Below, piece by piece: positions 1,941 to 41,078 of a stretch of 64,000 bases of DNA. The notes beneath the pieces are model-generated. The model saw nothing but the letters and a program-made list of their open reading frames with translations. It made no database searches and had not been told where the DNA came from. How positions within the stretch are numbered: position 1 is the stretch's first letter; the number at the start of each line of letters is the position of its first letter. Origin of the DNA: Opitutia bacterium Tous-C4FEB. Its GTDB lineage: Bacteria; Verrucomicrobiota; Verrucomicrobiia; Opitutales; Opitutaceae. Made by a program: the position numbers and the translations under genes. The DNA is taken from the NCBI GenBank assembly GCA_002304445.1, contig NEVA01000003.1, forward strand, positions 124,001 to 188,000. Reading direction: 5' to 3'.

Positions 1941-1995
1941 TTAGGATGATTAGTTGAACCCTCTCATCTGAGGTCAAACGTCCAGTAACATCGAT

Positions 1996-2014
1996 ATTGA
2001 GAGGCTGTCTCAAT
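1996..2014. promoter_or_regulatory. Inverted repeat in the aroB / TonB-receptor divergent region
   Basis: A 7-bp dyad, ATTGAGA and TCTCAAT separated by five bases, lies 42 bases before the TonB-receptor ATG. The outer TGAnA...TnTCA bases agree with the arms of the Fur 7-1-7 box, but the centre does not (9 of 14 matches). A TTGACA hexamer follows at 2022-2027 without a convincing -10. This is a candidate operator for an iron-responsive or other repressor; the assignment is inference. Confidence 0.35.
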
Positions 2015-2056
2015 AAACCATTTGACATGATACTAAGTCTCAATTTCTAAAACTGA

Positions 2057-4306: not shown

Positions 4307-4356
4307 CTGCTCGCTCGCCCGCGCCACGTCTGACGTTTTCGCTTTCGACGCCTTCC

Positions 4357-5499
4357 ATGACTTTTCGCAAATCCATTTTTTGGCTCCACCTCGCCGCCGG
4401 ACTCATCGCCGGCACCGTGATTGCGATCCTGTGCCTCACCGGCACCGCCCTCGCCTTTGAGAAAGAGATCATTGCCTACGCCGAGCGCGACGCCCGCCGC
4501 ATTGCGTCGCCTGCGACCGACGCCGCCCGACTTCCCCTCGCCGATCTCTTGAATCGCGTCCGCACCGCTCACCCCAACGCCCGCCCCGATGGCATTGTCC
4601 TTCAAAACCACCCGCTCGCGGCCGTCGCTTTTACCGCCGGTCGCACCACGACCTTTTACACCGATCCCTACACCGGCGAAATCCGCCAACCTGCCTCCAC
4701 CGGTGCCCGCGACACCTTGAAACTGATCGAAGATTGGCACCGCGTCCTCGCCCTCGGCGGCGACCAGCGCCCCATCGGCAAAGCCATCACCGGCGCCTGC
4801 AACTTTGCTTTCTTCGTTCTCGCGGTCTCCGGACTTTATCTTTGGTGGCCGCGGAAATGGCGCACCAAAGGGCTCCGCCGCTCGATCTGGTTCATCCGCC
4901 GGCCCGCCGACGCCAAAGCCCGCGACTGGAATTGGCACAACGTCATCGGTCTCTGGACCGCGCCCATTTTGATCGTGCTCACGCTCACCGCGCTGCCGAT
5001 CTCATACAAGTGGGCCGGGCAGATGCTCTTCACAATCACCGGCACGCCACCGCCTCCACCCACCACCGCCAGCGCCACGCCCGCCGCCAAACTCGTTCCG
5101 CCCACCCCAGACGCCAAACTTCTTTCCTCTGAAGATTTGATCGCTGTCGCCCAGAAACAGTTTCCGACTTGGGAGACCCTCACCTACCGCGCCGGCACCA
5201 CGCAGCCCGCCACCATCGCCGTCCGCACCGCGGATTCATGGCCGCGCACCGCGACCACGACGCTTTCCCTCAATCCCTTCACCGGCGAAATCCTAAAACG
5301 CGCCGGCTACGCCGAGCTCAACGCCGCCCAACAACTCCGCTCGTGGACGCGCTACCTCCACACGGGCGAGGCCGTCGGTTGGCCCGGTCAATTGCTCGCT
5401 GCGATTGCCTCCCTCGGAGGCTGCGTCCTTGTCTACACCGGCTTCGCCCTCGTCTGGCACCGTTGGCGCCGTTGGCGATCGTCCTCGGTGACGCCGTAG
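4357..5499 (+). CDS. PepSY-associated TM protein (PiuB-like, iron-uptake associated)
   Basis: The 380-aa inner-membrane protein begins with a TM helix in the typical PepSY_TM context (FWLHLAAGLIAGTVIAILCLTGTALAF). Further helices are near residues 145-165 (FAFFVLAVSGLYLWWP), 193-215 (NVIGLWTAPILIVLTLTALPIS) and 345-370. The periplasmic part contains PepSY-like segments ending TGEI (DPYTGEIR, NPFTGEILKR). Family members commonly neighbour TonB receptors and are proposed to reduce or process ferric siderophores. It starts 50 bases after the receptor stop and is probably in the same operon. A Pro/Thr-rich loop (about residues 228-250) precedes the last PepSY repeat. Confidence 0.85.
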   Translation: MTFRKSIFWLHLAAGLIAGTVIAILCLTGTALAFEKEIIAYAERDARRIASPATDAARLPLADLLNRVRTAHPNARPDGIVLQNHPLAAVAFTAGRTTTFYTDPYTGEIRQPASTGARDTLKLIEDWHRVLALGGDQRPIGKAITGACNFAFFVLAVSGLYLWWPRKWRTKGLRRSIWFIRRPADAKARDWNWHNVIGLWTAPILIVLTLTALPISYKWAGQMLFTITGTPPPPPTTASATPAAKLVPPTPDAKLLSSEDLIAVAQKQFPTWETLTYRAGTTQPATIAVRTADSWPRTATTTLSLNPFTGEILKRAGYAELNAAQQLRSWTRYLHTGEAVGWPGQLLAAIASLGGCVLVYTGFALVWHRWRRWRSSSVTP

Positions 5500-5738
5500 C
5501 CCAAAACGCCGGCTGCGTCCGGTTTTGAAAAACTTCGCCAACCCCGCGGATTCCTCCGCCCCGGGTCTTCGATGAACTCCGCTTTCACGCCTAGCTCGCT
5601 CTCGATTCTCGCCGTCGCCATCTTCGTTGCATCAGGCACTGCGGTACGCGCGCCGTTCACCCGGAGCGGGTAAGGCACCAAGTCGCAACATCCACCAAGG
5701 GTCGCTTGCAGCCTACCTGAACATCGCCAACTTCCCCG
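5500..5738 (+). other. Intergenic region with a possible 33-aa reading frame
   Basis: No confident gene is visible here. An ATG at 5572 opens a 33-codon frame ending at 5673 whose product has one hydrophobic stretch (LSILAVAIFVASGTAV) resembling a signal peptide or single TM helix. It could be a tiny membrane peptide or the remnant of a truncated secreted protein. There is no ribosome site or other support, so I do not call it a gene. Confidence 0.25.
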
Positions 5739-6074
5739 ATGCGCCCCTTCCTGCTCCTCCTTTTCCTCGTTTTGTCCATCGTGCCCCCGTTGCCCGCCGC
5801 CCCAGACCAGCGCATCCTCCTCATTGCCGCGCCATCGCTCAACGACGACGCCTACCGCACCCAAGCCGCGCTCCTGCTCCCCGCGCTTGCCGGGCTCAAC
5901 GAGCGCGACTTCGTCGTCCAAATCCAATTCGGCACCAAGTCCTTTTCCGTCGTGCTCATCGGCAAAGACGGCGGTGAAAAACTCCGTCGCGCCACCCCGC
6001 TTTCGCCCGAAGAACTCTTCGCCATCGTCGACGCCATGCCCATGCGCCGCGCCGAAATGCGCGGGCAGAAGTAA
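5739..6074 (+). CDS. DUF4174 domain protein, secreted
   Basis: A 111-aa protein with a clear signal peptide (RPFLLLLFLVLSIVPPLPAAP), followed by a compact domain starting RILLIAAPSLNDDAYRTQ and containing VVLIGKDGGEKLRR. This matches the thioredoxin-fold-like DUF4174 family, in which the IGKDGG and preceding beta-alpha pattern are conserved. Function is unknown; such genes often stand next to iron uptake or redox genes, and here it follows a TonB receptor and PepSY protein on the same strand. It is convergent with the AraC regulator gene, with only six bases between the stop codons. Confidence 0.75.
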   Translation: MRPFLLLLFLVLSIVPPLPAAPDQRILLIAAPSLNDDAYRTQAALLLPALAGLNERDFVVQIQFGTKSFSVVLIGKDGGEKLRRATPLSPEELFAIVDAMPMRRAEMRGQK

Positions 6075-6080
6075 ACCGCG

Positions 6081-6923
6081 CTACGCGCCCGCCCCGCGCC
6101 TAAACGTCGCCGGCCCGCAACCTGCCACCCGCGCAAATACGCGCGAGAAATGATACCGGTTGGCGTAGCCCAGCTTCGCGGCGACCTGCTCGACCGATAA
6201 ATCCGTGTAGCGCAGCAGCCGGCTCGCTTCGGTCACGCGCCGCTGCGTCATCACCTCGCTCGGCGTCGTGCCCGTCTCCGCCTTGAACCAGCGGATAAAC
6301 GCCCCCGCGCTCATCCCGCACGCCTGCGCGAGTTCACCCACCGCCGGCGGCGACGCCAGTCGTCCGCCGATCATCGCCAGCGCCCGCTCCAGCCGCGGCG
6401 AGGCCGGCGCTTGCCCGCCCAACTCCGCGCAACCCCACAGCGCATGCAACCACGCCAGCACCGTGTGGTTGAGTTGTGCGTCACCTCGCTTCGACCGCGC
6501 CCGCGCCTGCACTTCGCGCGCGAGCAGCTTCCCGTGCGGAGGCAACGTCACCACCACGGGCGCCGTGACTTTAGGCGAGGTAATCGGCAGAGAAAAATGC
6601 ACCCAAATGTGACCGACTTCGCCGCCCGGCAAGCAGTCAAAAACCGTTTCCGCCGGTACCAGCACCGCCCGATCCGGACGCAGTTCCACCCGCCGCCCCG
6701 CGTGCCTCACCGCCGCCCCCGCTTTCGTATTGAAATACGCCCGCCAGAACGGACTGCATACGTGGCGGAAATCCCACTCGCGCCCCACCACTTTGAACCC
6801 CACTTCGTGGACTTGGAAAAACGCGGGCACGCCCTCGCCTTCCGGCCGTACGCCGCTCGCCGTAAACGGCTCCCGCCATCCCCCTAGGTCAATTTTAGAC
6901 ACATCTTCGCCCATCGAGGACAT
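6081..6923 (-). CDS. AraC-family transcriptional regulator
   Basis: The 280-aa product has a divergent N-terminal cupin-like sensor region (about residues 35-130, with HIWVHFSLP) and a C-terminal AraC double helix-turn-helix. In the latter, PPAVGELAQACGMSAGAFIRWF forms the first helix pair and VEQVAAKLGYANRYHFSRVF the second. The protein probably binds a small ligand, perhaps a sugar, and activates nearby genes. It is divergent from the PSD1/DUF1501 pair with about 60 bases between start codons, so that pair is the most likely target. An alternative ATG is three codons downstream. The ligand cannot be predicted. Confidence 0.88.
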   Translation of the reverse strand: MSSMGEDVSKIDLGGWREPFTASGVRPEGEGVPAFFQVHEVGFKVVGREWDFRHVCSPFWRAYFNTKAGAAVRHAGRRVELRPDRAVLVPAETVFDCLPGGEVGHIWVHFSLPITSPKVTAPVVVTLPPHGKLLAREVQARARSKRGDAQLNHTVLAWLHALWGCAELGGQAPASPRLERALAMIGGRLASPPAVGELAQACGMSAGAFIRWFKAETGTTPSEVMTQRRVTEASRLLRYTDLSVEQVAAKLGYANRYHFSRVFARVAGCGPATFRRGAGA

Positions 6924-6983
6924 TGATGGCCGCGTCGTTCCGAGTTACAATTTGATATTCACGTGCGCATCCTCCTCGCATCC

Positions 6984-9900
6984 ATGCCCCGCCTCCGCTT
7001 TTCCATTTTCCTGCTCGCCTCGCTTCTTGCCCACGCCCGCCTTGCCGGCGCCGACGCTCCCATCGATTTTGGCCGCGAGGTGCGCCCTATCCTCTCCGAC
7101 AAGTGCTACAACTGCCACGGCCCCGACGAGGGTTCGCGCAAAGCCAAACTTCGCCTCGATACCCGCGCGGGCGCCCTCCACGTCGAAAACGCCACCGCAT
7201 CAATCATCCCCGGTCGGAGCGCGGAGAGTGAACTCGTTTTCCGCATCACCAGTGATGATCCCGAGGAGATCATGCCGCCGCCCGACGCGAAGATCGGCCG
7301 ACTCACCCCCACCGAAGTAGCCATTCTCAAACGCTGGATCGACGAAGGCGCACCCTATCAAAACCACTGGTCCTTCGAACCGCTCAAACCCGTCGCTCCG
7401 CCCGCGACTCCGGTCTCTCCCATTTCAACCCCAGCCACTCATCTCCCAAAAAATCCCATCGATCGCTTCGTCACCGCCGGACTCGCCCGCCGGCAACTCG
7501 GCCTTCAACCCGCCGCCGATCCCACCACCCTGATCCGCCGCCTCACTTTTGACCTTACCGGCCTGCCGCCAACGGTCGCCGAAATCGAGGCCTTCACCTC
7601 AGCTTTTGTTGAGAATAGGGAATCCAAAATCGAAAATCTGATCGACCGCCTGCTCGCCTCGCCCCGCTACGGCGAGCGCATGACCGCCGATTGGCTCGAC
7701 CTCGCGCGCTACGCCGACAGCTACGGTTTCCAAGTCGACCGCGAACGCGACATGTGGCCGTGGCGCGATTGGGTCATCAAAGCGTTCAACGAAAATCTCC
7801 CGTGGGACAAATTCGTCACCTACCAACTCGCGGGCGATCTGCTGCCCAATCCCACCGACGAGCAAATCCTCGCCACCGCGTTCAACCGTCTTCACCCGCA
7901 GGAGGCCGAGGGCGGATCCATCGAGGAGGAATACCGCATCAACCACGTCAACGACCGCGTCACCACTTTCGGCACCGCCTTCCTCGGCCTCACCCTCGAA
8001 TGCGCCAGGTGCCACGACCATAAATTCGATCCAATCCCCCAAAAAGATTTCTACGCCCTCGCCGCTTTCTTCCAAAACATCGACGAGGCCGGTCTCTATT
8101 CTTACTTCACCCAGTCGGTCCCCACCCCCGCTCTCCGTCTCACGGATTCAGCCCAGCGCGAAAAATTCGCCCGCGCCGCCTCTGCGGTCGAATCCGCCAC
8201 GTCCGCTCTCACGGCCCTTCGCGAAACTCGCCGCGACGCCTTCGCGGCTTGGCTCGCGGCTCTTCCGGCGTCCGCGCCCACGGTCCCCGACGAAGTCGCC
8301 CGCTTCGACTTCGAAGCCCGCGACACTTCTCCGCTCCCGCCCAAACCCGCCTCCGCTACCGCTCCAGCCGAGCCCGTCGCGGCCGTTCCCTCCGATGGAA
8401 AACCGGCCGGCCTCGCCCACTTCGCCAACACGCTCACTCCCGCCGATACCGCCACTACGCCCACCGAAAACGAATCCGTCCCCGGCCGCCCCGGTGCCGG
8501 CCAAGCCCTTCGTCTCACCGGCGACCACGCCGTAAAAACCAAAATCGGCAACTTCCACCGTCACGATCCTTTCACGATTTCCCTCTGGCTCCAAACTCCG
8601 GACATCAAGGAGCGCGCGGTCATCTTCCATCGCTCGCGCGCCTGGACCGATGCCGGCAGCCGCGGCTACGAACTCCTCATCGAGGAGGGCCGCGCCAAAT
8701 GGTCTCTCATCCACTTCTGGCCCGGCGACGCGATTTCCATCCGCACCCTCGACCCGATTCCCGTCGGTGCTTGGGTCAACGTCACCGTGACCAACGACGG
8801 TTCCAGCCGCGCGGCCGGCCTCCGCCTCTTCATCAACGGCCAACCCGCCCGCACCGAAATCATCCGCGACCACCTCACCAAGGACATCACCGGCGGTGGC
8901 GGCGATACCATCGCCCTCGGCGAACGTTTCCGCGATCGCGGCTTCAAAGGCGGTCTCATCGACGACTTCCGTGTCTTCGCGCGCGAACTCACCGCCGCCG
9001 AAGTTGCCCTGCTTGTTGTTACAAACTCCCAACTCGCAACGCTCAACCCTCAGCATCCGCTCCCCGATTTCGACACCTACCTCTCCGCCCAAGACGCACC
9101 TTACCGCACCGCCGTCGCGACGCTCACCGCCGCCCGCGCCGCCCTGACCACCCTCGCCGACGCCGCCAAAGAGATCATGGTTATGCGCGAGCTCCCAACT
9201 CCCAAGACCGCCTACATCCTCAAGCGCGGCGAGTATGACCATCGCGGCGCCGCCGTCTCCGCCGACACCCCGTCCGCGCTTCCCGCTTTCCCCGCTGACC
9301 AACCCCGCAACCGCCTCGGTCTCGCCCGTTGGCTGACCGCCCCCGACCACCCGCTGCTCGCCCGCGTGACGGTGAATCGCTTTTGGCAATCCCTCTTCGG
9401 TCAAGGCCTCGTCAAGACCTCCGACGACTTCGGTACCCAAGGCGATCGCCCCCAATTCCCCGAACTCCTCGACTGGCTCGCCGGAGAATTTGTCCGCTCG
9501 GACTGGGATGTGAAGGCTCTCCTCAAAACCATCGTCCTTTCCGAGACCTACCAACAACGCAGTTTCTCCACCCCGGAACAGATGGCCGACGATCCGGAAA
9601 ATACCTGGCTCGCCCGCGGTCCCCGCCACCGCCTCCCCGCCGAGATGATTCGCGACCAAGCCCTCGCTACCAGCGGCCTGCTGGTGGAAAAAATCGGCGG
9701 CCCACCCGTCTACACCTACGATATCCCCGAGTCCTTCAAGCCCGCCCCCGCCGGCAAAGGCGAAGCCCTCTATCGCCGCAGCCTCTACACCTTTTGGCGT
9801 CGCACCGGCCCCGCTCCGGTGCTCGAAGCGTTCGACGTCCCCAAGCGCGTCGTCTGCGTCACGCGTCGCGATACCACCAACACACCCCTGCAAGCCCTCG

Positions 9901-32021: not shown

Positions 32022-35000
32022 ATGCATCCCCCCGACTTCACTTACAAGCAGCCACCCGATCGCGAGCCGCCCACGCTCAACGAGGCCGGTATCGAGGACC
32101 TGTTTATTGCGAAGCTCCGCGAGCTCAAATACACCGACCGACCCGACATCCACGACCGCGCCGCGCTGGAGAAAAATTTCCGCGAAAAGTTCGAGGCGCT
32201 CAACCGCGTCCGCCTCACCGACGCCGAGTTTGCCCGCCTTCTAGAAGAGATCGTCACGCCCGATGTCTTCACCGCCGCCAAGACCCTCCGCCAGATCAAC
32301 GCCTTCACCCGCGACGATGGCACGCCGCTGAACTACACCTTGGTCAACCTCAAGGATTGGTGCAAAAACATCTACGAGGTCGTCAGCCAGCTCCGTATCA
32401 ACACGGACTACAGCCACCACCGTTACGACATCCTTCTCCTCATCAATGGTGTGCCCTGCGTGCAGATCGAGCTGAAGACGCTCGGCATCCACCCGCGCCG
32501 CGCCATGGAGCAGATCGTCGATTACAAAAACGACCCCGGCAACGGCTACACCAAGACCCTCCTCTGCTTCCTCCAGCTCTTCATCGTCAGCAATCGGCAC
32601 AGCACCTACTACTTCGCCAACAACAACGCCCGCCACTTCTCCTTTAATCAGGACGAGCGTTTCCTGCCCATCTACCAGTTCGCCGACGAGGCCAACAAGA
32701 AGATCACCCACCTCGACGACTTCGCCGCCACCTTCCTGGTGAAATGCACCCTCGGCCACACCATCAGCCGCTACATGGTGCTCATCCAGAGCGAGCAAAA
32801 GCTGCTCATGATGCGCCCGTATCAGGTCTATGCGGTGAAACACCTCGTCACCTGCATCCAGCAAGACAGCGGCAACGGCTTCATCTGGCACACCACCGGC
32901 AGCGGCAAGACCCTCACCTCCTTCAAGGCCGCCACCCTCCTCAAGGACAACCCCGACCTCGCCAAGTGCCTCTTCGTCGTGGATCGCAAGGACCTCGACC
33001 GCCAGACGCGCGAGGAGTTCAACCGCTTCCAAGAGGGCTGCGTCGAAGAAAACACCAACACCGCCGCCCTCGTGGGTCGCCTGCTCTCCGAGGACTACGC
33101 CGACAAGGTCATCGTCACCACCATCCAGAAGCTCGGGCTCGCGCTCGACGAGTCCAGCAAGCGCAACCAGCAGCGCAAAAAGAACGACCAGCCCACCTAC
33201 AAGGAGATGCTCGCCCCGCTACGCGACCAGCGCATCGCCTTCATCTTCGACGAGTGCCACCGCTCCCAGTTCGGCGAGAACCACCGGGCCATCAAAGAAT
33301 TCTTCCCCCGCGCCCAGCTCTTCGGCTTCACCGGCACCCCCATCTTCGACGAAAACGCCGCCCAGCAGAAGATCGAGGACACCCAGGCCTCGATGAAGAC
33401 CACGGAAGACCTCTTCCAAAAACGTCTTCACGCCTACACCATCACCCACGCCATCGAGGATGGGAACGTCCTCCGCTTCCACGTCGATTACTTCAAACCC
33501 GCCGGCAACGCCCTCCCGAAGCCCGGCGAGGCCCTCGCCAAGCGCGCCGTCATCGAGGCCATTCTCCAAAAACACGACACCGCCACCGGCGGACGCCGCT
33601 TCAACGCCGTCCTCGCCACCTCCTCCATCAACGACGCCATCGAATACCATGCGTTGTTTGCCACCCTGCAGGCCGAGAAACAGCAGGCCGATCCCGACTA
33701 CAAACCGCTCGCCATCGCCTGCGTCTTCTCCCCGCCCGCCGAGGGCGACCCCGATGTGAAGCAGATCCAGGAAGACTTGCCGCAGGAGCAGGCCGACAAC
33801 GAGGTCGAGCCCGACCAGAAAAAGGACGCCCTCAAGGCCATCCTCACCGACTACAACACCCGCTACGGCACCAATCACCGCATCTCCGAGTTCGATCTCT
33901 ACTATCAGGACGTCCAGAAGCGCATCAAAGACCAGCAGTGGCCCAACTCCGACTACCCCGCCGCGCAGAAAATCGACATCACCATCGTCGTGGACATGCT
34001 GCTCACCGGCTTTGATTCCAAATACCTGAACACGCTCTACGTGGACAAGAACCTCAAGCACCACGGCTTGATCCAGGCCTTCTCCCGCACCAACCGCGTG
34101 CTCAACGCCACCAAGCCCTACGGCAACATCCTCGACTTCCGCCAGCAGCAGGACGCCGTCGATGCCGCCATCGCCCTCTTCTCCGGCGAAAAGACCGGCC
34201 AGCAAGCCCGCGAAATCTGGCTCGTGGACAAGGCCCCCGTGGTCATCGAAAAACTCGCCGCCGCCGTGCAGAAGCTCGACGCCTTCATGCAGTCCCAGGG
34301 CCTCGACTGCGCGCCCTCCTCCGTCGCCAACCTCAAGGGCGATGCCGCCAAGACGGTCTTCATCGAGCGTTTTAAGGAAGTCCAGCGGCTCAAAACCCAG
34401 CTCGATCAATACACCGACCTCACCGAGGAAAACAAAGCCGCCATCGAGCAGGTGCTGCCGGACGACAGCCTGCGCGGTTTTAAAGGCCAGTATCTGGAAA
34501 CCGCCAAGAAACTCAAAGAGCAGCAGGGCAAAAGCACGGGCAAAGACGATGCCGACGATCCCGTGGCTCAGATCGACTTCGAGTTCGTGCTCTTCGCCTC
34601 CGCCGTCATCGACTACGACTACATCATGGGCCTCATCGCCAAGTTTGCCGGTCAGCCGACTGGCAAAGTTAAGATGACCCGCGACGAACTCGTCGCCCTG
34701 ATACGCGGTCATTCCAACCTCATGGACCAAAGCGATGATATCGTCGCTTACATCGACTCGCTCAAAGAGGTCAAAGGCCTGAGCGAGACCGCCATTCGCG
34801 ACGGCTACACCCGTTTCAAGGCTGAGAAAGACGCCGCAGAACTCACCGCCCTCGCGCAAAAACACCACCTCGCCCCCACCGCACTGCAAACCTTCGTGGA
34901 CGGCATCCTCGCCCGCATGATCTTCGACGGCGAGCACCTCAGCGATCTCCTCGCCCCGCTCGATCTCGGCTGGAAAGCCCGCACCCAGGCCGAACTCGCC

Positions 35001-35081
35001 CTCATGGCCGATTTGCTCCCCCTCCTCACCAAACGTGCCGGTGGCCGCGACATCTCCGGCCTCAGCGCCTACGAATCATGA
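32022..35081 (+). CDS. hsdR: Type I restriction enzyme R subunit (HsdR)
   Basis: The 1019-aa subunit contains, in order, the N-terminal nuclease (HHRYDILLLINGVPCVQIELKTLG, the D...E-x-K triad near residues 130-150) and the helicase motor: Walker A HTTGSGKTLTSF near 290, IAFIFDECHRSQFGENHRAI with DECH near 410, FGFTGTPIF, and C-terminal VDMLLTGFDSKYLNTLYVDK and LIQAFSRTNRV. HsdR translocates and cleaves unmodified DNA in complex with HsdM and HsdS. It is cytoplasmic and opens the island. Unusually, hsdM and hsdS are not contiguous with it. Five perfect or near-perfect palindromes follow its stop. Confidence 0.96.
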   Translation: MHPPDFTYKQPPDREPPTLNEAGIEDLFIAKLRELKYTDRPDIHDRAALEKNFREKFEALNRVRLTDAEFARLLEEIVTPDVFTAAKTLRQINAFTRDDGTPLNYTLVNLKDWCKNIYEVVSQLRINTDYSHHRYDILLLINGVPCVQIELKTLGIHPRRAMEQIVDYKNDPGNGYTKTLLCFLQLFIVSNRHSTYYFANNNARHFSFNQDERFLPIYQFADEANKKITHLDDFAATFLVKCTLGHTISRYMVLIQSEQKLLMMRPYQVYAVKHLVTCIQQDSGNGFIWHTTGSGKTLTSFKAATLLKDNPDLAKCLFVVDRKDLDRQTREEFNRFQEGCVEENTNTAALVGRLLSEDYADKVIVTTIQKLGLALDESSKRNQQRKKNDQPTYKEMLAPLRDQRIAFIFDECHRSQFGENHRAIKEFFPRAQLFGFTGTPIFDENAAQQKIEDTQASMKTTEDLFQKRLHAYTITHAIEDGNVLRFHVDYFKPAGNALPKPGEALAKRAVIEAILQKHDTATGGRRFNAVLATSSINDAIEYHALFATLQAEKQQADPDYKPLAIACVFSPPAEGDPDVKQIQEDLPQEQADNEVEPDQKKDALKAILTDYNTRYGTNHRISEFDLYYQDVQKRIKDQQWPNSDYPAAQKIDITIVVDMLLTGFDSKYLNTLYVDKNLKHHGLIQAFSRTNRVLNATKPYGNILDFRQQQDAVDAAIALFSGEKTGQQAREIWLVDKAPVVIEKLAAAVQKLDAFMQSQGLDCAPSSVANLKGDAAKTVFIERFKEVQRLKTQLDQYTDLTEENKAAIEQVLPDDSLRGFKGQYLETAKKLKEQQGKSTGKDDADDPVAQIDFEFVLFASAVIDYDYIMGLIAKFAGQPTGKVKMTRDELVALIRGHSNLMDQSDDIVAYIDSLKEVKGLSETAIRDGYTRFKAEKDAAELTALAQKHHLAPTALQTFVDGILARMIFDGEHLSDLLAPLDLGWKARTQAELALMADLLPLLTKRAGGRDISGLSAYES

Positions 35082-35110
35082 GAGCCACGATTCCGTCCAG
35101 CGCGGATTCC

Positions 35111-35140
35111 GATCATTTTGTTGAGGCCAACAAAATGATC
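35111..35140. repeat. Palindrome P1 after hsdR
   Basis: Arms GATCATTTTGTTG and CAACAAAATGATC with loop AGGC. The central 28 bp has the outer form AYCATTTT...AAAATGRT shared with P2, P4 and P7. Read on the plus strand in one frame it spells DHFVEANKMI. Confidence 0.8.
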
Positions 35141-35154
35141 GAAATCGCCGCTGA

Positions 35155-35182
35155 ACCATTTTCCCGACGCCACGAAAATGGT
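35155..35182. repeat. Palindrome P2 after hsdR
   Basis: 28 bp, ACCATTTTC and GAAAATGGT with a mostly complementary ten-base centre. It resembles P7 closely. Its reading frame spells NHFPDATKMV. Confidence 0.7.
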
Positions 35183-35196
35183 CATTTTAACGATCC

Positions 35197-35222
35197 TAAT
35201 TCCGTCGAATTCGACGGGATTA
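35197..35222. repeat. Palindrome P3 after hsdR
   Basis: 26 bp, TAATTCCGTCGAA and TTCGACGGGATTA with no loop and one T-G mismatch. Unlike P1/P2/P4 it has no CATTTT arms but shares size and position. Confidence 0.7.
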
Positions 35223-35258
35223 AAATCACGCCCGCCCTCGCCACCTCGCGCCCCTCCG

Positions 35259-35286
35259 ACCATTTTGTTGGCATCAACAAAATGGT
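35259..35286. repeat. Palindrome P4 after hsdR
   Basis: 28 bp, ACCATTTTGTTG and CAACAAAATGGT with loop GCAT. It shares architecture with P1 and spells DHFVGINKMV in the corresponding frame. Confidence 0.8.
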
Positions 35287-35300
35287 AGGATGTATCGCCT

Positions 35301-35328
35301 CCAAACCTCTCGAAATCGAGAGGTTTGG
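35301..35328. repeat. Palindrome P6 after hsdR
   Basis: 28 bp, CCAAACCTCTCGA and TCGAGAGGTTTGG around AA; perfect arms of 13. It ends eight bases before the composite repeat at 35336. Confidence 0.8.
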
Positions 35329-35335
35329 AATTGCT

Positions 35336-35436
35336 CCCCAGCCCCAACGGGGCGTCCCAATCCAGCCCAGGGCAACGCCCTGGGTTCACCGCCCGCCCCC
35401 ACATCAGCAAGCCCTGAAGGGGCGCCCCATACCCCA
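35336..35436 (+). repeat. Composite hairpin repeat, copy 1 (leader of the ATP-binding gene)
   Basis: Three linked hairpin-like words: AGCCCCAACGGGGCG, CCCAGGGCAACGCCCTGGG and AGCCCTGAAGGGGCG, then CCCATACCCC five bases before the next gene's ATG. A full copy with the same end precedes hsdS at 37018-37118. Confidence 0.8.
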
Positions 35437-35441
35437 CGCCC

Positions 35442-36935
35442 ATGCGCAGTAAGCCCGAAACCCACCGTATCGAGCACAAGCGTGAACTCACGCCCGAGCT
35501 CGACCTGGAGAAAGAAGTCATCGCCTTTCTCAACACCCCCGAGGGCGGGCTCATTTTCATCGGCATTGATAAGACCGGCCAACCTGTCGGCGTGGCGGAC
35601 TTGGACGGTGACATGCTCAAAATCAAAGACCGCATCAAAAACAACATCACCCCTTCTGCGATGGGTTTGTTTGATGTCGTGGATGAAGAGCAGGGCGGCG
35701 CGACCTGCATTAAAATCATCGTCGCCGGCGGCAGCGAGAAGCCCTACTTCAAAAAGAAATACGGCATGACGGAGCGCGGCTGCTTCCTCCGCATCGGCAC
35801 CGCCGCCGAGCCCATGCCCACCGCCCTGATCGAGCGGCTCTTCGCCTCCCGCACGCGCAACTCCATCGGCAAAATCAAATCCCACCGTCAGGAACTCAGC
35901 TTCGAGCAACTCCGCATCTACTACGAAGAAAAGCGCAAGCCCCTCAACCGCCAGTTTCGCACTAACCTGGAACTCACCACCGAAGACGGTGCCCTCAACT
36001 ACGCCGCCTATCTCCTCGCTGACGAAAACGGCCTCTCCATCAAGGTGGCCAAATACCGGGGCAAAGACCGCGTCCATCTCATCGAGAGCAACGAATACGG
36101 CTACTGCTCCCTCATCAAAGCCACCAAGAGCGTGCTCGATAAGCTCGACCTGGAAAACAGAACCTCCTCCACCATCACCGCCAAAGGCCGCACCGATGTC
36201 CGCCTCTGGAGCCCCATCGCCCTGCGCGAGGCCGTCATCAACGCCATCGTGCACAACGACTACACCCGCGAAGTCCCGCCCAAGTTCGAGATCTTCTCCG
36301 ACCGCATCGAGATCACCTCCGCCGGCACCCTGCCTGAAGGCCTCACCCCAGCCGAGTTTTTCGAGGGCTACTCCATACCCCGGAACAAAGAGCTGATGCG
36401 CATCTTTAAAGATCTGGAACTGGTCGAGCACCTCGGCTCCGGCATCCCCCGCATCACCCAGTTTTTCCCGGCGAGTTGCTTCCGCTTCACCGAGAATTTC
36501 CTCCGTTCCACCTTCCCCGCCATCGAGCCCGTCCATGCCGAGGATGACGTCGATGCCCCAGTCACCCCGCAAGTCACCCCGCAAGTCGAGGCCACGGTCA
36601 CAGGTGAAGTTGCAGGTGAAGACACAGGCGAAGTCGCAGGTGAAGTCACCCCGGAGGTCGAGGCCCCAGTCGAGGCCCCAGTCGAGGCCCCAGTCGAGGC
36701 CCCAGTCGCCATGACTGAAACTGAGCGGAAAATCTTAGTGTCACTTGGAGGCAGCCCAATCGGACGAAGCGCCATGCTGGCAGTCCTTGGCTACCGTCAG
36801 CCAACGGGCAACTTCAAGACAGCAATCGAAAGGCTTTTGCTAGCCGGGCTTATCGAGCGCACTCTCCCCGACAAGCCCAACAGCCGCCTCCAGCGCTACC
36901 GCCTCACGGCAAAAGGCAGGAGCGTGCTAAAATGA
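35442..36935 (+). CDS. AlbA_2/Schlafen-type ATP-binding protein
   Basis: The 497-aa protein starts with an AlbA_2 (divergent Schlafen-like) domain: HRIEHKRELTPELDLEKEVIAFLNTPEGGLIFIGIDKTGQPVGV. A helicase-related HATPase_c_4-like region follows near residues 255-350 (LREAVINAIVHNDYTR, then LGSGIPRI). A Pro/Val/Glu-rich linker (about 370-425, VEAP repeats) leads to a winged-helix-like C-terminus (RSAMLAVLGYRQPTGNFKTAIERLLLAGLIERT). Such genes recur in type I RM loci; the role is uncertain, perhaps regulatory or defensive. It lies between hsdR and hsdS, with composite repeats on both sides. Confidence 0.85.
   Translation: MRSKPETHRIEHKRELTPELDLEKEVIAFLNTPEGGLIFIGIDKTGQPVGVADLDGDMLKIKDRIKNNITPSAMGLFDVVDEEQGGATCIKIIVAGGSEKPYFKKKYGMTERGCFLRIGTAAEPMPTALIERLFASRTRNSIGKIKSHRQELSFEQLRIYYEEKRKPLNRQFRTNLELTTEDGALNYAAYLLADENGLSIKVAKYRGKDRVHLIESNEYGYCSLIKATKSVLDKLDLENRTSSTITAKGRTDVRLWSPIALREAVINAIVHNDYTREVPPKFEIFSDRIEITSAGTLPEGLTPAEFFEGYSIPRNKELMRIFKDLELVEHLGSGIPRITQFFPASCFRFTENFLRSTFPAIEPVHAEDDVDAPVTPQVTPQVEATVTGEVAGEDTGEVAGEVTPEVEAPVEAPVEAPVEAPVAMTETERKILVSLGGSPIGRSAMLAVLGYRQPTGNFKTAIERLLLAGLIERTLPDKPNSRLQRYRLTAKGRSVLK
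36657..36704 (+). repeat. Four exact 12-bp tandem repeats in the linker
   Basis: GTCGAGGCCCCA occurs four times in a row, encoding VEAP repeats. It is in frame, so copy-number change alters only linker length. Confidence 0.9.
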
Positions 36936-36945
36936 AACCCCGCGT

Positions 36946-37118
36946 CCCCCCAGCCCCAACGGGGCGTCCTATACCAGCCCAGGGCAACGCCCTGCGACAA
37001 ACGTCCGCCCGCACATTCCCCAGCCCCAACGGGGCGGCCCCATACCAGCCCACGGCAACGCCCTGGGGTTACGTCCGTCCCCACCTCCGCAAGCCCTGAA
37101 GGGGCGACCCATTCCCCG
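36946..37118 (+). repeat. Composite hairpin repeat, copies 2 (truncated) and 3 (hsdS leader)
   Basis: Copy 2 (36946-37016) has the AGCCCCAACGGGGCG and CAGGGCAACGCCCTG words but loses its right end. Copy 3 (37018-37118) is complete and ends GGGGCGACCCATTCCCC, five bases before the hsdS ATG. No other sequence lies between the two. Confidence 0.8.
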
Positions 37119-37123
37119 CGCCC

Positions 37124-38344
37124 ATGAGCAATAAACCGAAAACCCCCGCCACGAAGGAAGAGGCAAGGCCCGCGCTGGTGCCGAAGCTGCGGTTTCCGGA
37201 GTTTCTGGAGGCGGACGGGTGGGATGTAGACTGTCTCGCAGAAGTGGCGGATTTCGTGAACGAGAAAACTCCTCTCGATCGTGTTGCGTTAGAAAATTAC
37301 ATCAGCACCGAAAATATCCTGCCAGACTTCGGCGGAGTCGCCAGAGCATCGAAACTGCCTACAACGGGTTCAGTGACGCGGTATAGACCAAATGACACCT
37401 TGGTCTCCAACATCCGCCCATATTTAAAGAAGGTTTGGGTCGCAGACAAAGAAGGAGGCGCATCGAATGATGTTATTGTCATCCGAGCGAAGCAGCGATT
37501 GCTCCCGCAATATTTCTCCTGCCTCCTGAAAAATGACGCCTTCATCGACTACGTGATGACCGGGGCAAAGGGTGTGAAGATGCCACGGGGCGACATTGGC
37601 TCGATGAAGGAGTATCCCACGCTCTACCCGTCCAAACCCGAACAACAAAAAATCGCCGAGTGCCTGAGTTCGGTGGACGAGCTGATCGCCGCGCAAGCGC
37701 GGAAACTGGACGCGCTCAAGACCCATAAAAAAGGGCTGATGCAGCAGCTTTTCCCCCGCGAAGGCGAAACCCAACCCCGCCTCCGCTTCCCCGAATTCCA
37801 AAACGCCGGCGAGTGGGAGATGAAGGTGCTCGGCGATGTGGTGAAAAGCTTTAAGACGGGCAAGCTTGATGCCAACGCGATGGTAGAAAATGGCCAATAC
37901 AGGTTCTACACCTGCGCAAAGAATCACTACCAAATCGACAACTACGCATTCGAAGGTGAAGCGCTACTTGTGGCCGGAAACGGTGCCCACTTGGGATATA
38001 TACATCACTACATCGGAAAGTTTAACGCCTACCAGCGAACCTATGTATTACAGAAGTTTGAGGCCAACGTAGTGTTCCTGCGGTGTCTGCTAGACCGACA
38101 TTTGCCCTCGCGGATTCAGTTTGAGAAAAAAGACGGCAACACGCCCTACATCGTTTTGTCCACGCTCACGGAGATGCCGCTGGTAATCCCAAAAGAGCTC
38201 GCCGAACAACAACGCATCGCCGACTGCCTGAGCAGCCTCGACGACCTCATCGCCGCGCAAACCCAAACGCTCGAAGCCCTCAAGACCCACAAGCAAGGCC
38301 TGATGCAGCAGCTTTTCCCCTCCCCGGAGGCGGCGTCGGTATGA
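37124..38344 (+). CDS. hsdS: Type I restriction enzyme specificity subunit (HsdS)
   Basis: The 406-aa subunit has two target-recognition domains. Each half begins with a short PKLRFPEF/PRLRFPEF motif and ends in a conserved helical region: EQQKIAECLSSVDELIAAQ...KKGLMQQLFP (about 173-210) and EQQRIADCLSSLDDLIAAQ...KQGLMQQLFP (about 361-399). The first TRD (about 30-165) and the second (about 225-355) differ, implying a bipartite recognition site. It confers DNA-sequence specificity on HsdM and HsdR. The helical repeats are alike at DNA level, so recombination could swap TRDs. A palindrome cluster follows it. Confidence 0.95.
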   Translation: MSNKPKTPATKEEARPALVPKLRFPEFLEADGWDVDCLAEVADFVNEKTPLDRVALENYISTENILPDFGGVARASKLPTTGSVTRYRPNDTLVSNIRPYLKKVWVADKEGGASNDVIVIRAKQRLLPQYFSCLLKNDAFIDYVMTGAKGVKMPRGDIGSMKEYPTLYPSKPEQQKIAECLSSVDELIAAQARKLDALKTHKKGLMQQLFPREGETQPRLRFPEFQNAGEWEMKVLGDVVKSFKTGKLDANAMVENGQYRFYTCAKNHYQIDNYAFEGEALLVAGNGAHLGYIHHYIGKFNAYQRTYVLQKFEANVVFLRCLLDRHLPSRIQFEKKDGNTPYIVLSTLTEMPLVIPKELAEQQRIADCLSSLDDLIAAQTQTLEALKTHKQGLMQQLFPSPEAASV

Positions 38345-38386
38345 GCGCGACGCCCGCACGTTTCCGCCGCCGCGCAGCCCCGGCCG

Positions 38387-38414
38387 ACCATTTTCCTGAC
38401 GTCAGGAAAATGGT
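38387..38414. repeat. Palindrome P7 after hsdS
   Basis: A perfect 28-bp palindrome, ACCATTTTCCTGAC and its complement GTCAGGAAAATGGT with no loop. It belongs to the P1/P2/P4 family after hsdR and spells DHFPDVRKMV. Confidence 0.85.
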
Positions 38415-38466
38415 TGGGACCGGGATCACACAGCGAGATCCGGAGGCGGGATTTTATCAGCGCTCC

Positions 38467-38653
38467 AGTAGTCAAGGATTCCTTGACCACTCAAACCGGA
38501 GGCGAAGCCGAGTTACCGAGGATTCCTCGGCAACTGCGAGGTTCTTAGCGCAGGGCCTTTTCACCCCTCGTAGCCAAGGCAACCGTCAAGGAATCCTTGA
38601 CGGTTCAAACCGAGCCAAGGCGGATGCGAACCACCGAGAAATCCTCGGTAGTT
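38467..38653. repeat. Four 25-bp palindromes in two similar units (P8-P11)
   Basis: P8 38467-38491 (GTCAAGGA-T-TCCTTGAC core), P9 38511-38535 (CCGAGGA-T-TCCTCGG core), P10 38581-38605 (AACCGTCAAGGA-A-TCCTTGACGGTT, perfect) and P11 38629-38653 (ACCGAG...CTCGGT core, two mismatches). The order TCAAGGA-type then CCGAGGA-type repeats at 114-bp spacing. P8, P10 and P11 are followed by CAAAC. Frames read QGFLDHSN, QGILDGSN and REILGSSN. Confidence 0.8.
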
Positions 38654-38783
38654 CAAACGGCGACAGGACTCCTAGGTCGGGCTTTCAACTTCTGCTACAT
38701 GTGCTTTTCGCAGGCCTGGGGCGTTACCCCAAGACATGCTACCGCCCTTGACCCGGCACGCATTTTCGCATAAAAGTGTTTTT

Positions 38784-39044
38784 ATGAGAACCACCCTCGA
38801 TCTGCCCGATCCACTCTTTCGCGAACTCAAGGCCCGGTCTGCCCTGCGCGGTGTGCTGCTCAAGGACTTCGTCGCCGAAATCCTCCAGACCGGCCTCGCG
38901 CAGACCGCCGCCGCCCAGGCCGAAGCCCGCCCGCGCAGTCCCCTGCCTGTGATCCGCAAGGCCACCGGCGTCGCCCACCCCGCCCTTTCCAACCGCGAAA
39001 TCGACGCTCTGCTCGTCGCCGAGGACGCCCATGGCGGCAATTGA
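38784..39044 (+). CDS. Antitoxin of a VapBC-type system
   Basis: 86 aa from ATG 38784. The N-terminal MRTTLDLPDPLFRELKARSALRGVLLKDFVAEIL is a ribbon-helix-helix-like DNA-binding segment, and the variable C-terminus would bind the toxin. It overlaps the toxin gene by 14 bases. It lies between hsdS and hsdM, after the palindrome cluster. Confidence 0.8.
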   Translation: MRTTLDLPDPLFRELKARSALRGVLLKDFVAEILQTGLAQTAAAQAEARPRSPLPVIRKATGVAHPALSNREIDALLVAEDAHGGN

Positions 39045-39465
39045 CGTCCCCGACCTAAACCTCTGGCTCGCCCTCATCGACCCAGACCACGCGCACCACG
39101 CCCGCGCCCGCCGCTACTGGGAAAACGAGGCCGCCGCCGAAATCGCCTTTTGCCGCGTGACCATGCTGGGCCTGCTCCGCCTGCTCACCAACTCGCGCGT
39201 GATGCACGGAGCGCCCTTCACCCCCGCCGAGGCCTGGGATGCCTACCGAGCCTTCGCCGTATTGCCCGAGGTCTGCTTCGTCGAAGATTCCCTCGCCGCC
39301 GAAAAGCGCTTCGAACTCTGGAGCCGCGTCCCGGATTTCCCCGCCCACCGCTGGACCGACGCCTGGATCGCCGCCCTCGCCGCATCTGCCGGAGCCCGCA
39401 TCGTCTCTTTCGACTCCGATTTCACCACCTTCCCCGACCTCGATTTTCTCCACCTGCGCCCATGA
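39031..39465 (+). CDS. PIN-domain toxin of a VapBC-type system
   Basis: The 144-aa product has the PIN acidic residues: D in IDVPDLNLWLALID near residue 7, then TMLGLLRLLTN, and the C-terminal HRWTDAWIAALA plus IVSFDSDF with Asp residues. VapC-like RNases with this TA-system subfamily (PIN domain, RNase activity on tRNA) are expected. The stop overlaps the hsdM start by ATGA, so the pair is translationally coupled to the methylase gene. This links restriction methylation expression to an addiction module. Confidence 0.85.
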   Translation: MAAIDVPDLNLWLALIDPDHAHHARARRYWENEAAAEIAFCRVTMLGLLRLLTNSRVMHGAPFTPAEAWDAYRAFAVLPEVCFVEDSLAAEKRFELWSRVPDFPAHRWTDAWIAALAASAGARIVSFDSDFTTFPDLDFLHLRP

Positions 39466-41078
39466 CCGACACCAACCAAAAGAAGCTGGGCTCCACCCTC
39501 TGGAGCATCGCCGACCAACTGCGCGGGGCGATGGATGCGGACGACTTCCGCGACTACATGCTGTCCTTCCTCTTCCTGCGCTACCTCTCGGACAACTACG
39601 AGACGGCGGCCAAGAAGGAACTCGGCAAAGATTATCCCGCGCTGCCGGCCGACGACCGCCGCGTGCCGCTGGCCCTCTGGTATGCCAACAACCCGGACGA
39701 CATCCCGGCCTTCGAGAAGCAGATGCGCCGCAAGGTGCACTACGTCATCCAGCCCGCACATCTCTGGAACAGCATCGCCGGCCTGGCCCGCACCCAGAAC
39801 GCCGACCTGCTCAACACGCTCCAAGCCGGCTTCAAATACATCCAGGACGAGTCCTTTGAGAGCACCTTTGACGGCCTCTTTTCCGAGATCGATCTCGCCT
39901 CGCCCAAGCTCGGCAAGGTCTATGCCGACCGGAACGCCAAGCTCTGCACCATCATCCAGAAGATCGCCGAGGGCCTGAACGAGTTCTCCACCGACATCGA
40001 CGCGCTGGGCGACGCCTACGAATACCTGATCGGCCAGTTCGCCGCCGGGTCCGGCAAGAAAGCGGGCGAGTTCTACACCCCGCAGCAGATTTCCGACATC
40101 CTCTCCACCATCGTCACGCTGGACAGCCAATCGCCCGACCAAGGCCCCAAGAAGCGCCTCGAAAGCGTGCTCGATTTCGCCTGCGGCTCCGGCTCCCTGC
40201 TGCTCAACGTCCGCAAGCGCATGGGCCCGCAAGGCATCGGCAAAATCTACGGGCAGGAGAAAAACATCACCACCTACAACCTCGCCCGCATGAACATGCT
40301 GCTGCACGGGGTGAAGGATACGGAGTTCGAAATCTACCACGGCGACACCCTCACCAACGAGTGGGACATCCTGCGCGAGCTGAACCCGGCCAAGAAACCC
40401 AGCTTCGACGCCATCGTCGCCAATCCGCCCTTCAGCTACCGCTGGGAACCCACCGACGCCCTGGGCGACGACGTGCGTTTCAAGAACCACGGCCTCGCCC
40501 CCAAGTCCGCCGCCGACTTCGCCTTTCTCCTCCACGGCTTCCACTACCTGAAAGACGAAGGCGTGATGGCCATCATCCTGCCCCACGGCGCGCTCTTCCG
40601 TGGCGGCGCCGAGGAACGTATCCGCACGAAGCTGCTTAAAGACGGCCACATCGACACCGTCATCGGCCTGCCCGCGAACCTCTTTTATTCCACGGGCATC
40701 CCGGTCTGCATCCTCGTGCTCAAGAAGTGCAAGCAGCCGGACGACGTGCTCTTCATCAACGCCGCCGAGCACTTCGTGAAGGGCAAACGCCAGAACCAAC
40801 TCACGCCGGAGCACATCGCCAAGATCATCGAGACCTACAAATTCCGGAAGCAAGAGCCCCGCTACTCCCGCCGGGTGGAGATGGCCGAGATCGAGAAAAA
40901 CGAGTTCAACCTGAACATCTCCCGCTACATCAGCACCGCGACCGCCGAGGAAGAAATCGACCTCGCCGCCACCCAAGCCGAGCTAGTCGAGATCGAGCGC
41001 GCAATCCGAACGGCGACGAGGAAGCACAACGCATTCTTGAAGGAACTAGAGCTGCCCGCACTGCCTTCAGCGGAGTAG
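39462..41078 (+). CDS. hsdM: Type I restriction enzyme methylase subunit (HsdM)
   Basis: The 538-aa N6-adenine methyltransferase has the N-terminal helical HsdM domain (LGSTLWSIADQLRGAMDADDFRDYMLSF), the FYTPQQISDIL motif, the SAM-binding DFACGSGSLLLNVRKRMG near residue 238, and the catalytic NPPF in VANPPFSYRWEP near 321. The C-terminal EFNLNISRYI is typical. It starts inside the last codons of the toxin gene (ATGA). With hsdS it protects host DNA. It is the last gene of the island. Confidence 0.96.
   Translation: MTDTNQKKLGSTLWSIADQLRGAMDADDFRDYMLSFLFLRYLSDNYETAAKKELGKDYPALPADDRRVPLALWYANNPDDIPAFEKQMRRKVHYVIQPAHLWNSIAGLARTQNADLLNTLQAGFKYIQDESFESTFDGLFSEIDLASPKLGKVYADRNAKLCTIIQKIAEGLNEFSTDIDALGDAYEYLIGQFAAGSGKKAGEFYTPQQISDILSTIVTLDSQSPDQGPKKRLESVLDFACGSGSLLLNVRKRMGPQGIGKIYGQEKNITTYNLARMNMLLHGVKDTEFEIYHGDTLTNEWDILRELNPAKKPSFDAIVANPPFSYRWEPTDALGDDVRFKNHGLAPKSAADFAFLLHGFHYLKDEGVMAIILPHGALFRGGAEERIRTKLLKDGHIDTVIGLPANLFYSTGIPVCILVLKKCKQPDDVLFINAAEHFVKGKRQNQLTPEHIAKIIETYKFRKQEPRYSRRVEMAEIEKNEFNLNISRYISTATAEEEIDLAATQAELVEIERAIRTATRKHNAFLKELELPALPSAE

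Follow-up and report, generated by a model that had tools for sequence, protein, structure and literature searches.

Regulators that control their own genes include proteins that bind a palindromic operator as helix-turn-helix dimers; the operator can also lie inside a gene, as that of PurR at purB does, and a roadblock is a known mode of action. In restriction-modification (RM) systems, the C-proteins represent a regulator together with palindromic boxes in the RM locus. We know of no regulator family with a family-wide fixed site within the codons of its own wing. Here, we analyzed a 64,000-nt stretch of the genome of Opitutia bacterium Tous-C4FEB (contig NEVA01000003.1, positions 124,001 to 188,000; hereafter the window), in which a type I RM island is accompanied by two types of palindromes, named P1, P2, P4 and P7 on the one hand and R1 to R4 on the other. 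We consider it probable from sequence comparison that these palindromes are free-standing target sites of the winged-helix proteins DinD and RhuM, respectively, whose genes hold such a site internally. This reading builds on the palindromes themselves, their place within dinD and rhuM, their paired evolution, a code that links them to the recognition helix and their dispersal outside these genes.

Unlike the boxes of C-proteins, the palindromes described here belong to another protein family and are located 3′ of genes and inside dinD and rhuM. The REP/RAYT systems (REP, repetitive extragenic palindrome; GTAG and CGTC superfamilies) share with them a palindrome of 20–40 bp that lies mostly downstream of genes and sometimes inside them, as described in PMC3733652. 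In contrast to REPs as defined there, the flanks of P1, P2, P4 and P7 lack an unpaired GTAG or CGTC tag at the base of the stem; copies are few (four DinD-type and four RhuM-type palindromes found, all in the island), one sequence recurs in different phyla, and the proteins that go with it are a winged-helix family with the site inside its own gene. A classical REP family was rejected because it does not agree with copy number and tags; of the REP-like mobile family suggested in the initial annotation of the window, the dispersed copies stand, whereas the tags are missing and copies per genome are few. Rickettsia palindromic elements (RPEs) are described in PMC3733652 as palindromes inserted in frame in protein genes; what sets the palindromes described here apart is their link to dinD and rhuM and to a recognition-helix code. 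With respect to these two genes, a fusion of dinD with hsdS has been reported for a type I system (PMC4996451), RhuM has been found near RM and PrrC genes and proposed as a toxin domain (PMC3710099), and E. coli DinD inhibits RecA, as cited in PMC10602874.

The coding sequence of dinD keeps a palindrome at the DNA level

A pattern scan for ACCATTTT-N12-AAAATGGT in one genome each for 84,980 species yielded at least 118 loci. The initial annotation had proposed to search other genomes for paired changes, and these were found far above chance: with the arms fixed and the centre left free, 113 of 122 places among the matches listed possess at least three of six centre pairs. The palindrome is not a repeat particular to Opitutaceae, since the record titles span many phyla and the own genome contains only four DinD-type copies. 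Eighty-eight of the 122 listed places lie inside an open reading frame (ORF) matching one and the same protein family, 6 are near such a frame and 28 are neither (E ≤ 1e-3). This family is DinD, 'DNA damage-inducible protein D', which contains a Bro-N domain and corresponds to PADLOC PDC-S13.

To avoid a selection based on DNA, DinD genes were also gathered by protein profile from four phylum samples, namely the window's own phylum and those to which, judged by record titles, genomes of Mediterranea, Caballeronia and Lachnospira belong (387, 198, 299 and 299 genomes). The 102 loci obtained gave 95 sites, as L242, L243, L279 and L280 miss the motif and L230, L262 and L276 are palindrome-derived; some of these 95 rows are overlapping loci of one gene (e.g. 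L267/L268, L278/L285 and L281/L286). In the own phylum, the in-frame palindrome is present at 30/30 profile-found loci. Across the four samples, the codons of the motif DHFxxxx[KE]M[VI] keep 10–14 of 14 palindromic pairs at 91 of the 95 sites, the total including four remote homologues that lack the palindrome (L235, L236, L241 and L265; 2–6 pairs) and are not part of the 59 unique sites used below. The pair count at the motif exceeds that at every other place of the gene at 89 of the 95 sites. Both in dinD and in rhuM, the site is found some 60–75 codons into the reading frame, at the codons of the first wing strand. E. coli DinD fits only loosely, with 10/14 pairs and the helix DWRNF.

Synonymous recoding reduces the mean of 11.97 pairs to 8.63, with p ≤ 0.01 at 41 of 63 unique sites. 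The paired changes are most evident at codons 4 and 7 of the motif, in which 88% of positions are paired compared to a mean of 41% and a maximum of 58% in 20,000 permutations (59 unique sites). The two codons are reverse complements of each other as GTT/AAC, CGT/ACG, GCC/GGC, GCT/AGC, GAG/CTC, GTG/CAC or TCC/GGA; the second commonest pair, GTT/ACC (8/59 sites), is off by one base from a full reverse complement. The arms also change in pairs, for example ACGATTTT with AAAATCGT, and some are unpaired at one or two bases. The feature that is kept at the dinD motif is a DNA palindrome more than an amino acid sequence. That the protein motif alone produces the palindrome was rejected on the basis of the recoding result and of the pairs kept in free copies, and a chance origin by shuffles, by the scan of the whole window (both below) and by the centre-pair counts. 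The initial annotation had read the coordinated changes as selection for a hairpin; selection on the palindrome is borne out in part, whereas its formation in RNA is unsupported.

The palindrome follows the recognition helix of DinD

The second helix of the DinD helix-turn-helix starts with x1-W-x3-x4-F. Genes encoding RWENF have the left half-site (positions 9–12) CGTG in 28 of 29 cases, the remaining gene having CGTG in the right one. The helix EWRNF is accompanied by the half-site GTTG in 28/28 genes, QWRNF by GCTG in 9/11, QWRRF by GCCG in 10/13, SWDKF by TCCC in 6/6 and EYRNF by GTGG in 4/5, and all three genes with EYRHF, QYRHF or EFRHF have GAGG. For KWENF, the 14 genes are distributed over CCTG (7), CCCG (3), CTTG (3) and GCCG (1). 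These counts and the statistics that follow come from 176 genes, some of whose loci were retrieved with fixed-arm palindrome patterns. At equal background identity, the same half-site occurs in 71–90% of the gene pairs that share the helix and in 3.5–7.1% of those that do not. The strongest associations with the site outside the motif belong to the three variable helix positions x1, x3 and x4 (phi 0.38, 0.29 and 0.21 in descending order; next column 0.14). Leave-one-out prediction of the half-site was correct for 120 of 146 genes, compared to a majority baseline of 25%. We have shown in this way that the inner bases of the DinD site match the residues of the protein's own recognition helix in the sense of a statistical code, and the initial guess of protein binding sites is borne out to this extent. 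Phylogeny as the sole cause was rejected by the identity-matched bins. A contact between helix and wing within the protein could couple amino acids, yet it could neither create codons that are reverse complements nor affect copies outside dinD.

In an AlphaFold model of DinD (pLDDT, the predicted local distance difference test, of 90), the variable residues are positioned at the start of the second helix of the helix-turn-helix (41–57) and the residues coded by the palindrome form the first wing strand (66–74). The RhuM model (pLDDT 78) has the corresponding helix at 40–52 and the palindrome-coded strand at 62–71. By sequence, no convincing relative of DinD was found in the PDB (best E 0.78). 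The only strong PDB match of the DinD model, and its closest solved structure, is DdrC of Deinococcus radiodurans, a DNA-damage response protein (Foldseek E 3e-5; VIA Z 14.4, root-mean-square deviation (rmsd) 10.3, 194 aligned). With RhuM, DdrC again headed the structure matches, but it reached no more than Z 7.1 (rmsd 12.4, 188 aligned) and shared this rank with a baculovirus Orf22 domain and with the Par domain of pSK1 in its DNA-bound form.

RhuM genes contain an equivalent palindrome

An equivalent palindrome with 9–13 of 13 pairs and very different sequences is found at the same place in 39/39 distinct rhuM genes, which are those recognised as distinct by motif search among all loci collected; many of the 69 loci fetched for RhuM were unrecognised or duplicate, and pairs were counted around whichever centre scored best in a range of about 26 codons. 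In a smaller set, the best palindrome lies at or near the site in 20/21 genes, with that of L370 elsewhere and that of L376 in another copy of the motif further upstream. The residue that precedes the helix histidine sorts with the inner triplet of the site: L, M or Q with AGG or AGA, K with CCA, E with GGA, R with CAA or CAG and H with GAA. This table was made post hoc and sorts 37/37 genes without overlap. Distances between helices and between sites correlate with r 0.75, the maximum of 1,000 permutations being 0.18, in a comparison uncorrected for kinship. The 4/10 viral loci in which RhuM was recognised combine KQNVSLH with GTCAAGG and TDNIGLH with ACCGAGG.

Palindromes of both types in the RM island of the window

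The palindromes and genes of the island are as follows (coordinates of the window; strand and database matches where assigned).

32022..35081, + strand: hsdR, type I restriction subunit R (Pfam HSDR_N, ResIII, SWI2_SNF2, EcoR124_C)
35112..35139: P1, DinD-type palindrome, 12/14 pairs, half-site GTTG (code of helix EWRNF)
35155..35182: P2, DinD-type palindrome, 11/14 pairs, mixed half-sites CCCG / CGTG
35192..35227: P3, palindrome with other arms, inverted repeat
35259..35286: P4, DinD-type palindrome, 12/14 pairs, half-site GTTG (code of helix EWRNF)
35300..35329: P6, palindrome with other arms
35442..36935, + strand: Schlafen/AlbA_2 plus RecG-like ATPase-type protein (Pfam)
37124..38344, + strand: hsdS, type I specificity subunit (Pfam Methylase_S, PADLOC Specificity_I)
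38387..38414: P7, DinD-type palindrome, perfect with 14/14 pairs, half-site CCTG (code of helix KWENF)
38466..38492: R1, RhuM-type palindrome, core GTCAAGGATTCCTTGAC (code of KQNxxLH helices)
38510..38536: R2, RhuM-type palindrome, core CCGAGGATTCCTCGG (code of TDNIxLH helices)
38580..38606: R3, RhuM-type palindrome, core GTCAAGGAATCCTTGAC, reads TVKESLTV
38628..38654: R4, RhuM-type palindrome, core CCGAGAAATCCTCGG
38736..39044: small ORF ahead of the PIN gene, no Pfam match
39031..39465, + strand: PIN-domain protein, putative toxin (Pfam PIN)
39474..41078, + strand: hsdM, type I methyltransferase (Pfam N6_Mtase, HsdM_N)

The initial annotation had described four palindromes with a common outer form, a perfect 28-bp P7, the reading (D/N)HF(V/P)xxxKM(V/I), P3 and P6 as palindromes of the same size class with different arms, and a location directly 3′ of two RM-island genes. 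All of this holds: P1, P2, P4 and P7 are real repeats, the reading is correct with a frame that differs from copy to copy, P1 begins 30 nt past the hsdR stop codon and P7 42 nt past that of hsdS. P1, P4 and P7 fit AYCATTTT-nnnG-n4-Cnnn-AAAATGRT with a paired centre, and P2 fits it with mixed half-sites. The spaced motif ATTTT-N12-AAAAT occurs four times in the 64 kb compared to 0.02 expected occurrences, a number reached in 0/100 shuffles, and a palindrome scan of the whole window gave only five matches scoring at least 10, all within 35105–38605. In the own genome (3.76 Mb, 39 contigs), CATTTT-N4..24-AAAATG is present at eight places, and the 12-base centre is restricted to P1, P2, P4 and P7. 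No ORF of at least 40 amino acids in the window matches DinD (E ≤ 1e-3), so that the copies of the window lie outside dinD frames.

R1 to R4, located after hsdS at 38466–38654, are four further palindromes that the initial annotation did not contain. They fit RhuM-type cores such as GTCAAGGANTCCTTGAC or CCGAGGANTCCTCGG of rhuM genes, R4 with one mismatch, and read in one frame TVKESLTV or similar to TTEKSSV, which is a motif of RhuM (Virulence_RhuM, PF13310). The codes of R1/R3 (KQNVSLH, GTCAAGG) and R2/R4 (TDNIGLH, ACCGAGG) are both found in viral RhuM genes. Genome searches for both cores returned only these four places. The palindromes of the island are real and, as far as the own genome was searched, confined to it. 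For P3 and P6, a search for a matching gene family found none; they may be sites of further winged-helix families.

The island also contains a second repeat type, CAGCCCCAACGGGGCG...CAGGGCAACGCCCTG, at 35336–35428, 36948–37040 and 37018–37110, which flanks the AlbA_2 and hsdS genes. Within the gene of the AlbA_2/ATPase protein, tandem 12-bp repeats (36546–36707) encode a V-E-A-P-like stretch.

Free copies are dispersed among defence genes, ordinary genes and phages

Places with the 12-base centre number 1–7 per genome in the 28 genomes searched, chance ones included. At five of 15 free-site loci with at least four centre pairs, the site lies at most 125 nt from where a defence or toxin-antitoxin gene ends, namely Shedu (L061), HipA_2/DUF3037 (L110 and L140), MNT-HepT (L058) and a type III-like methylase next to HepT (L066). 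This count does not include L288 and the window, which have their origin in other searches. The neighbours of the remaining loci were scanned in part, leaving out L045, L048, L087 and L156; the scanned sites adjoin ordinary genes (cobalamin in L068, rhamnogalacturonan lyase in L107, glycosidase in L124), a RusA nuclease (L143) or neighbours without a Pfam match. Judged by similarity to the window proteins, RM genes are near 9 of the 91 listed palindrome loci with DinD and 0 of the 27 others (118 loci), and the association with RM genes is therefore taken from Pfam-checked neighbours only. L288, from the same family as the window genome, possesses a free site between type III-like mod and res genes (1637–7974) in a genome without a DinD match. 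In L287, from the same genus, dinD, hsdS, a Y1 transposase gene, rhuM and hsdM stand in a row with a DinD-type palindrome inside dinD, which as read appears internally deleted. The transposase gene of L287, at 1893–2633 between hsdS and rhuM, is IS200-like.

Sites near dinD occur as well. In L122 (198–3728), dinB, dinD and an XRE/S24 regulator follow each other and three identical perfect palindromes are found before dinB, inside dinD and between dinD and the regulator, an arrangement that looks operator-like. In L151, L115 and L149, a site precedes the likely dinD start by about 35–70 nt. A 50-bp near-perfect palindrome centred on the DinD-type site was seen in L107 (5303–5352), and a chimaeric frame in L063 (6063–6314), in which an N-terminus that by reading resembles RhuM is joined to a DinD fragment with the palindrome. 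Pairing beyond the core was too weak to be used as a signal of free sites, the mean of the next 10 pairs being 3.55 at 20 bacterial free sites, 2.59 at 34 viral sites, 3.75 at the 4 window sites and 2.62 at 91 coding sites.

In viral contigs, the DinD-type site lies outside dinD in 57/62 loci. The RhuM-type site is present at 96 places in 95 viral loci, one of them within a recognised rhuM. Among 57 distinct contexts, the longest ORF reads the site as TVKESLTV in 36, in the other open frame in 20 and in the third in 1 (25 versus 9 for ORFs of at least 150 amino acids). Such in-frame copies in unrelated proteins were seen in phages and not among the copies of the window. A second, homologous and empty-like stretch in L482 (473–648) differs by 30 nt, or 10 codons, from the filled L455, L466, L485 and others; it is the one informative case among the 40 alignments listed of 49 flagged, and a precise deletion may also account for it. 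Phage contigs L300 (1004–1031), L306 (778–805) and L311 carry a further palindrome family, ATGTYCCCGAAA..TTTCGGGRACAT, beside DinD-type sites.

Discussion

Very likely, a dimer of the DinD or RhuM protein binds the palindrome. The site inside the gene might act as an autoregulatory roadblock, a proposal for and against which we see equal weight; site and reader would then reside on one piece of DNA and therefore co-evolve and travel together. As their distribution shows, copies of the site have spread, unaccompanied by the gene, to the 3′ ends of genes for defence and other functions and into phage genomes, sometimes in frame in phage proteins; these bare sites would be mobile or selected targets. 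The copies in the RM island would perhaps put the defence genes within reach of a DinD or RhuM arriving on a mobile element, which we propose only tentatively.

Several observations weigh against this explanation. The own genome has no DinD match by profile, only 4 of the 15 genomes with free DinD-type sites (G000, G471–G484) possess a DinD over the cut-off, and 0/3 readable resident codes match the free site of the same genome. Given the absence of DinD from the own genome and the lack of matching resident codes, the free copies look dispersed rather than like operators of a resident regulator. The one RhuM of the own genome (L393) combines KQNVGQH with GTAAAGG, a code unlike that of R1 to R4, the window mixes sites of different codes, free sites are found mostly at 3′ ends and not at promoters, and the RhuM correlation may in part reflect kinship. 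Only one empty-site example was found. DdrC, unlike the DinD proposed here, is reported in PMC5436757 to bind DNA without sequence or shape specificity. A profile comparison with hhalign gives no link between DinD and RhuM, and the architecture that both share may hence be convergent or old.

We weighed these points against four other explanations. The strongest of them, which we consider quite possible although below even likelihood, is that the palindrome of 25–30 bp copies itself in the manner of RPEs or REPs, with dinD and rhuM as its sources or hosts. It would account for free copies in many unrelated contexts that have only the palindrome in common, for the prevalence of the TVKESLTV frame in unrelated phage proteins (36/57 contexts), for the 10-codon difference from the empty-like stretch and for the clusters of sites in the window, L066 and L301. 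The few copies per genome, the missing GTAG/CGTC tag and the lack of a transposase tied to the sites speak against it, and mobility alone leaves unexplained that helix residues predict the palindrome. Sites of recombination at which defence genes and RM modules bearing dinD or rhuM are exchanged would fit the location of free sites next to RM genes of type I (window) and of a type III-like kind (L288 and L066) and next to Shedu, HipA_2/DUF3037 and MNT-HepT genes, as well as the chimaeric RhuM-DinD frame of L063. This explanation is improbable in our view, as several free sites adjoin ordinary genes (L068, L107 and L124) and no recombinase was identified at the part of the free loci whose neighbours were scanned.

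Equally improbable appear relics of dinD and rhuM genes lost from the RM island. The gene row of L287 with its apparently deleted dinD, the dinD-hsdS fusion reported in PMC4996451 and the weak DinD similarity kept at some free sites (genomes of L148, L063 and L070) would agree with such a loss; it is opposed by the lack of DinD matches in the window ORFs, by the perfect palindrome of P7, by several copies with different codes inside 200 bp and by the 57 viral loci with the site outside dinD, in which other ORFs have no DinD match (E ≤ 1e-3). RNA hairpins that serve as 3′-end stabilisers or terminators, as put forward in the initial annotation, can be considered highly unlikely. In their favour, the sites directly follow genes, the palindrome could fold into a 12-bp stem closed by a 4-base loop, and conservation is lowest for the two innermost pairs. 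Against them, no terminator-like site with a GC-rich stem and a T run is present at the palindromes (6 found in the region compared to 7.0 expected), and an Rfam scan matches only two tRNAs. Stem mismatches at the 59 unique coding sites comprise 10 G-U, 9 A-C and 27 of other kinds and thus no excess of G-U; moreover, the main occurrence is within the coding sequence of dinD and rhuM (88/122 listed places in dinD frames), and the helix code suggests that the reader of the DNA is a protein.

Among the matches listed from the open-licence literature, we found no description of the coding palindrome of dinD or rhuM, nor of a family-wide site in the wing codons of its putative reader that is tracked by the recognition helix, and a search of that literature for operators within coding regions found no paper. 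Going further, DinD and RhuM might represent a new class of genes, in which the DNA that encodes the wing is read by the protein's own domain, and these proteins, or phages using them, might distribute the palindrome alone, a minimal mobile element, among phage genes and defence islands. We regard this as rather unlikely; if true, the reader, the site and part of the reading surface would be one sequence.

Until now, DinD and RhuM have been described as genes of the SOS response, of pathogenicity islands or associated with RM systems, and their role at the molecular level has been unsettled. With a readable helix-to-palindrome code, their binding sites could be predicted from sequence across many phyla, which would make this role testable at once, and the code would provide a natural data set for protein-DNA recognition. 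The site in dinD and rhuM would be an example of selection at the DNA level that overrides amino-acid identity in a conserved coding region, and the palindromes may serve to trace what is exchanged between phages and defence islands.

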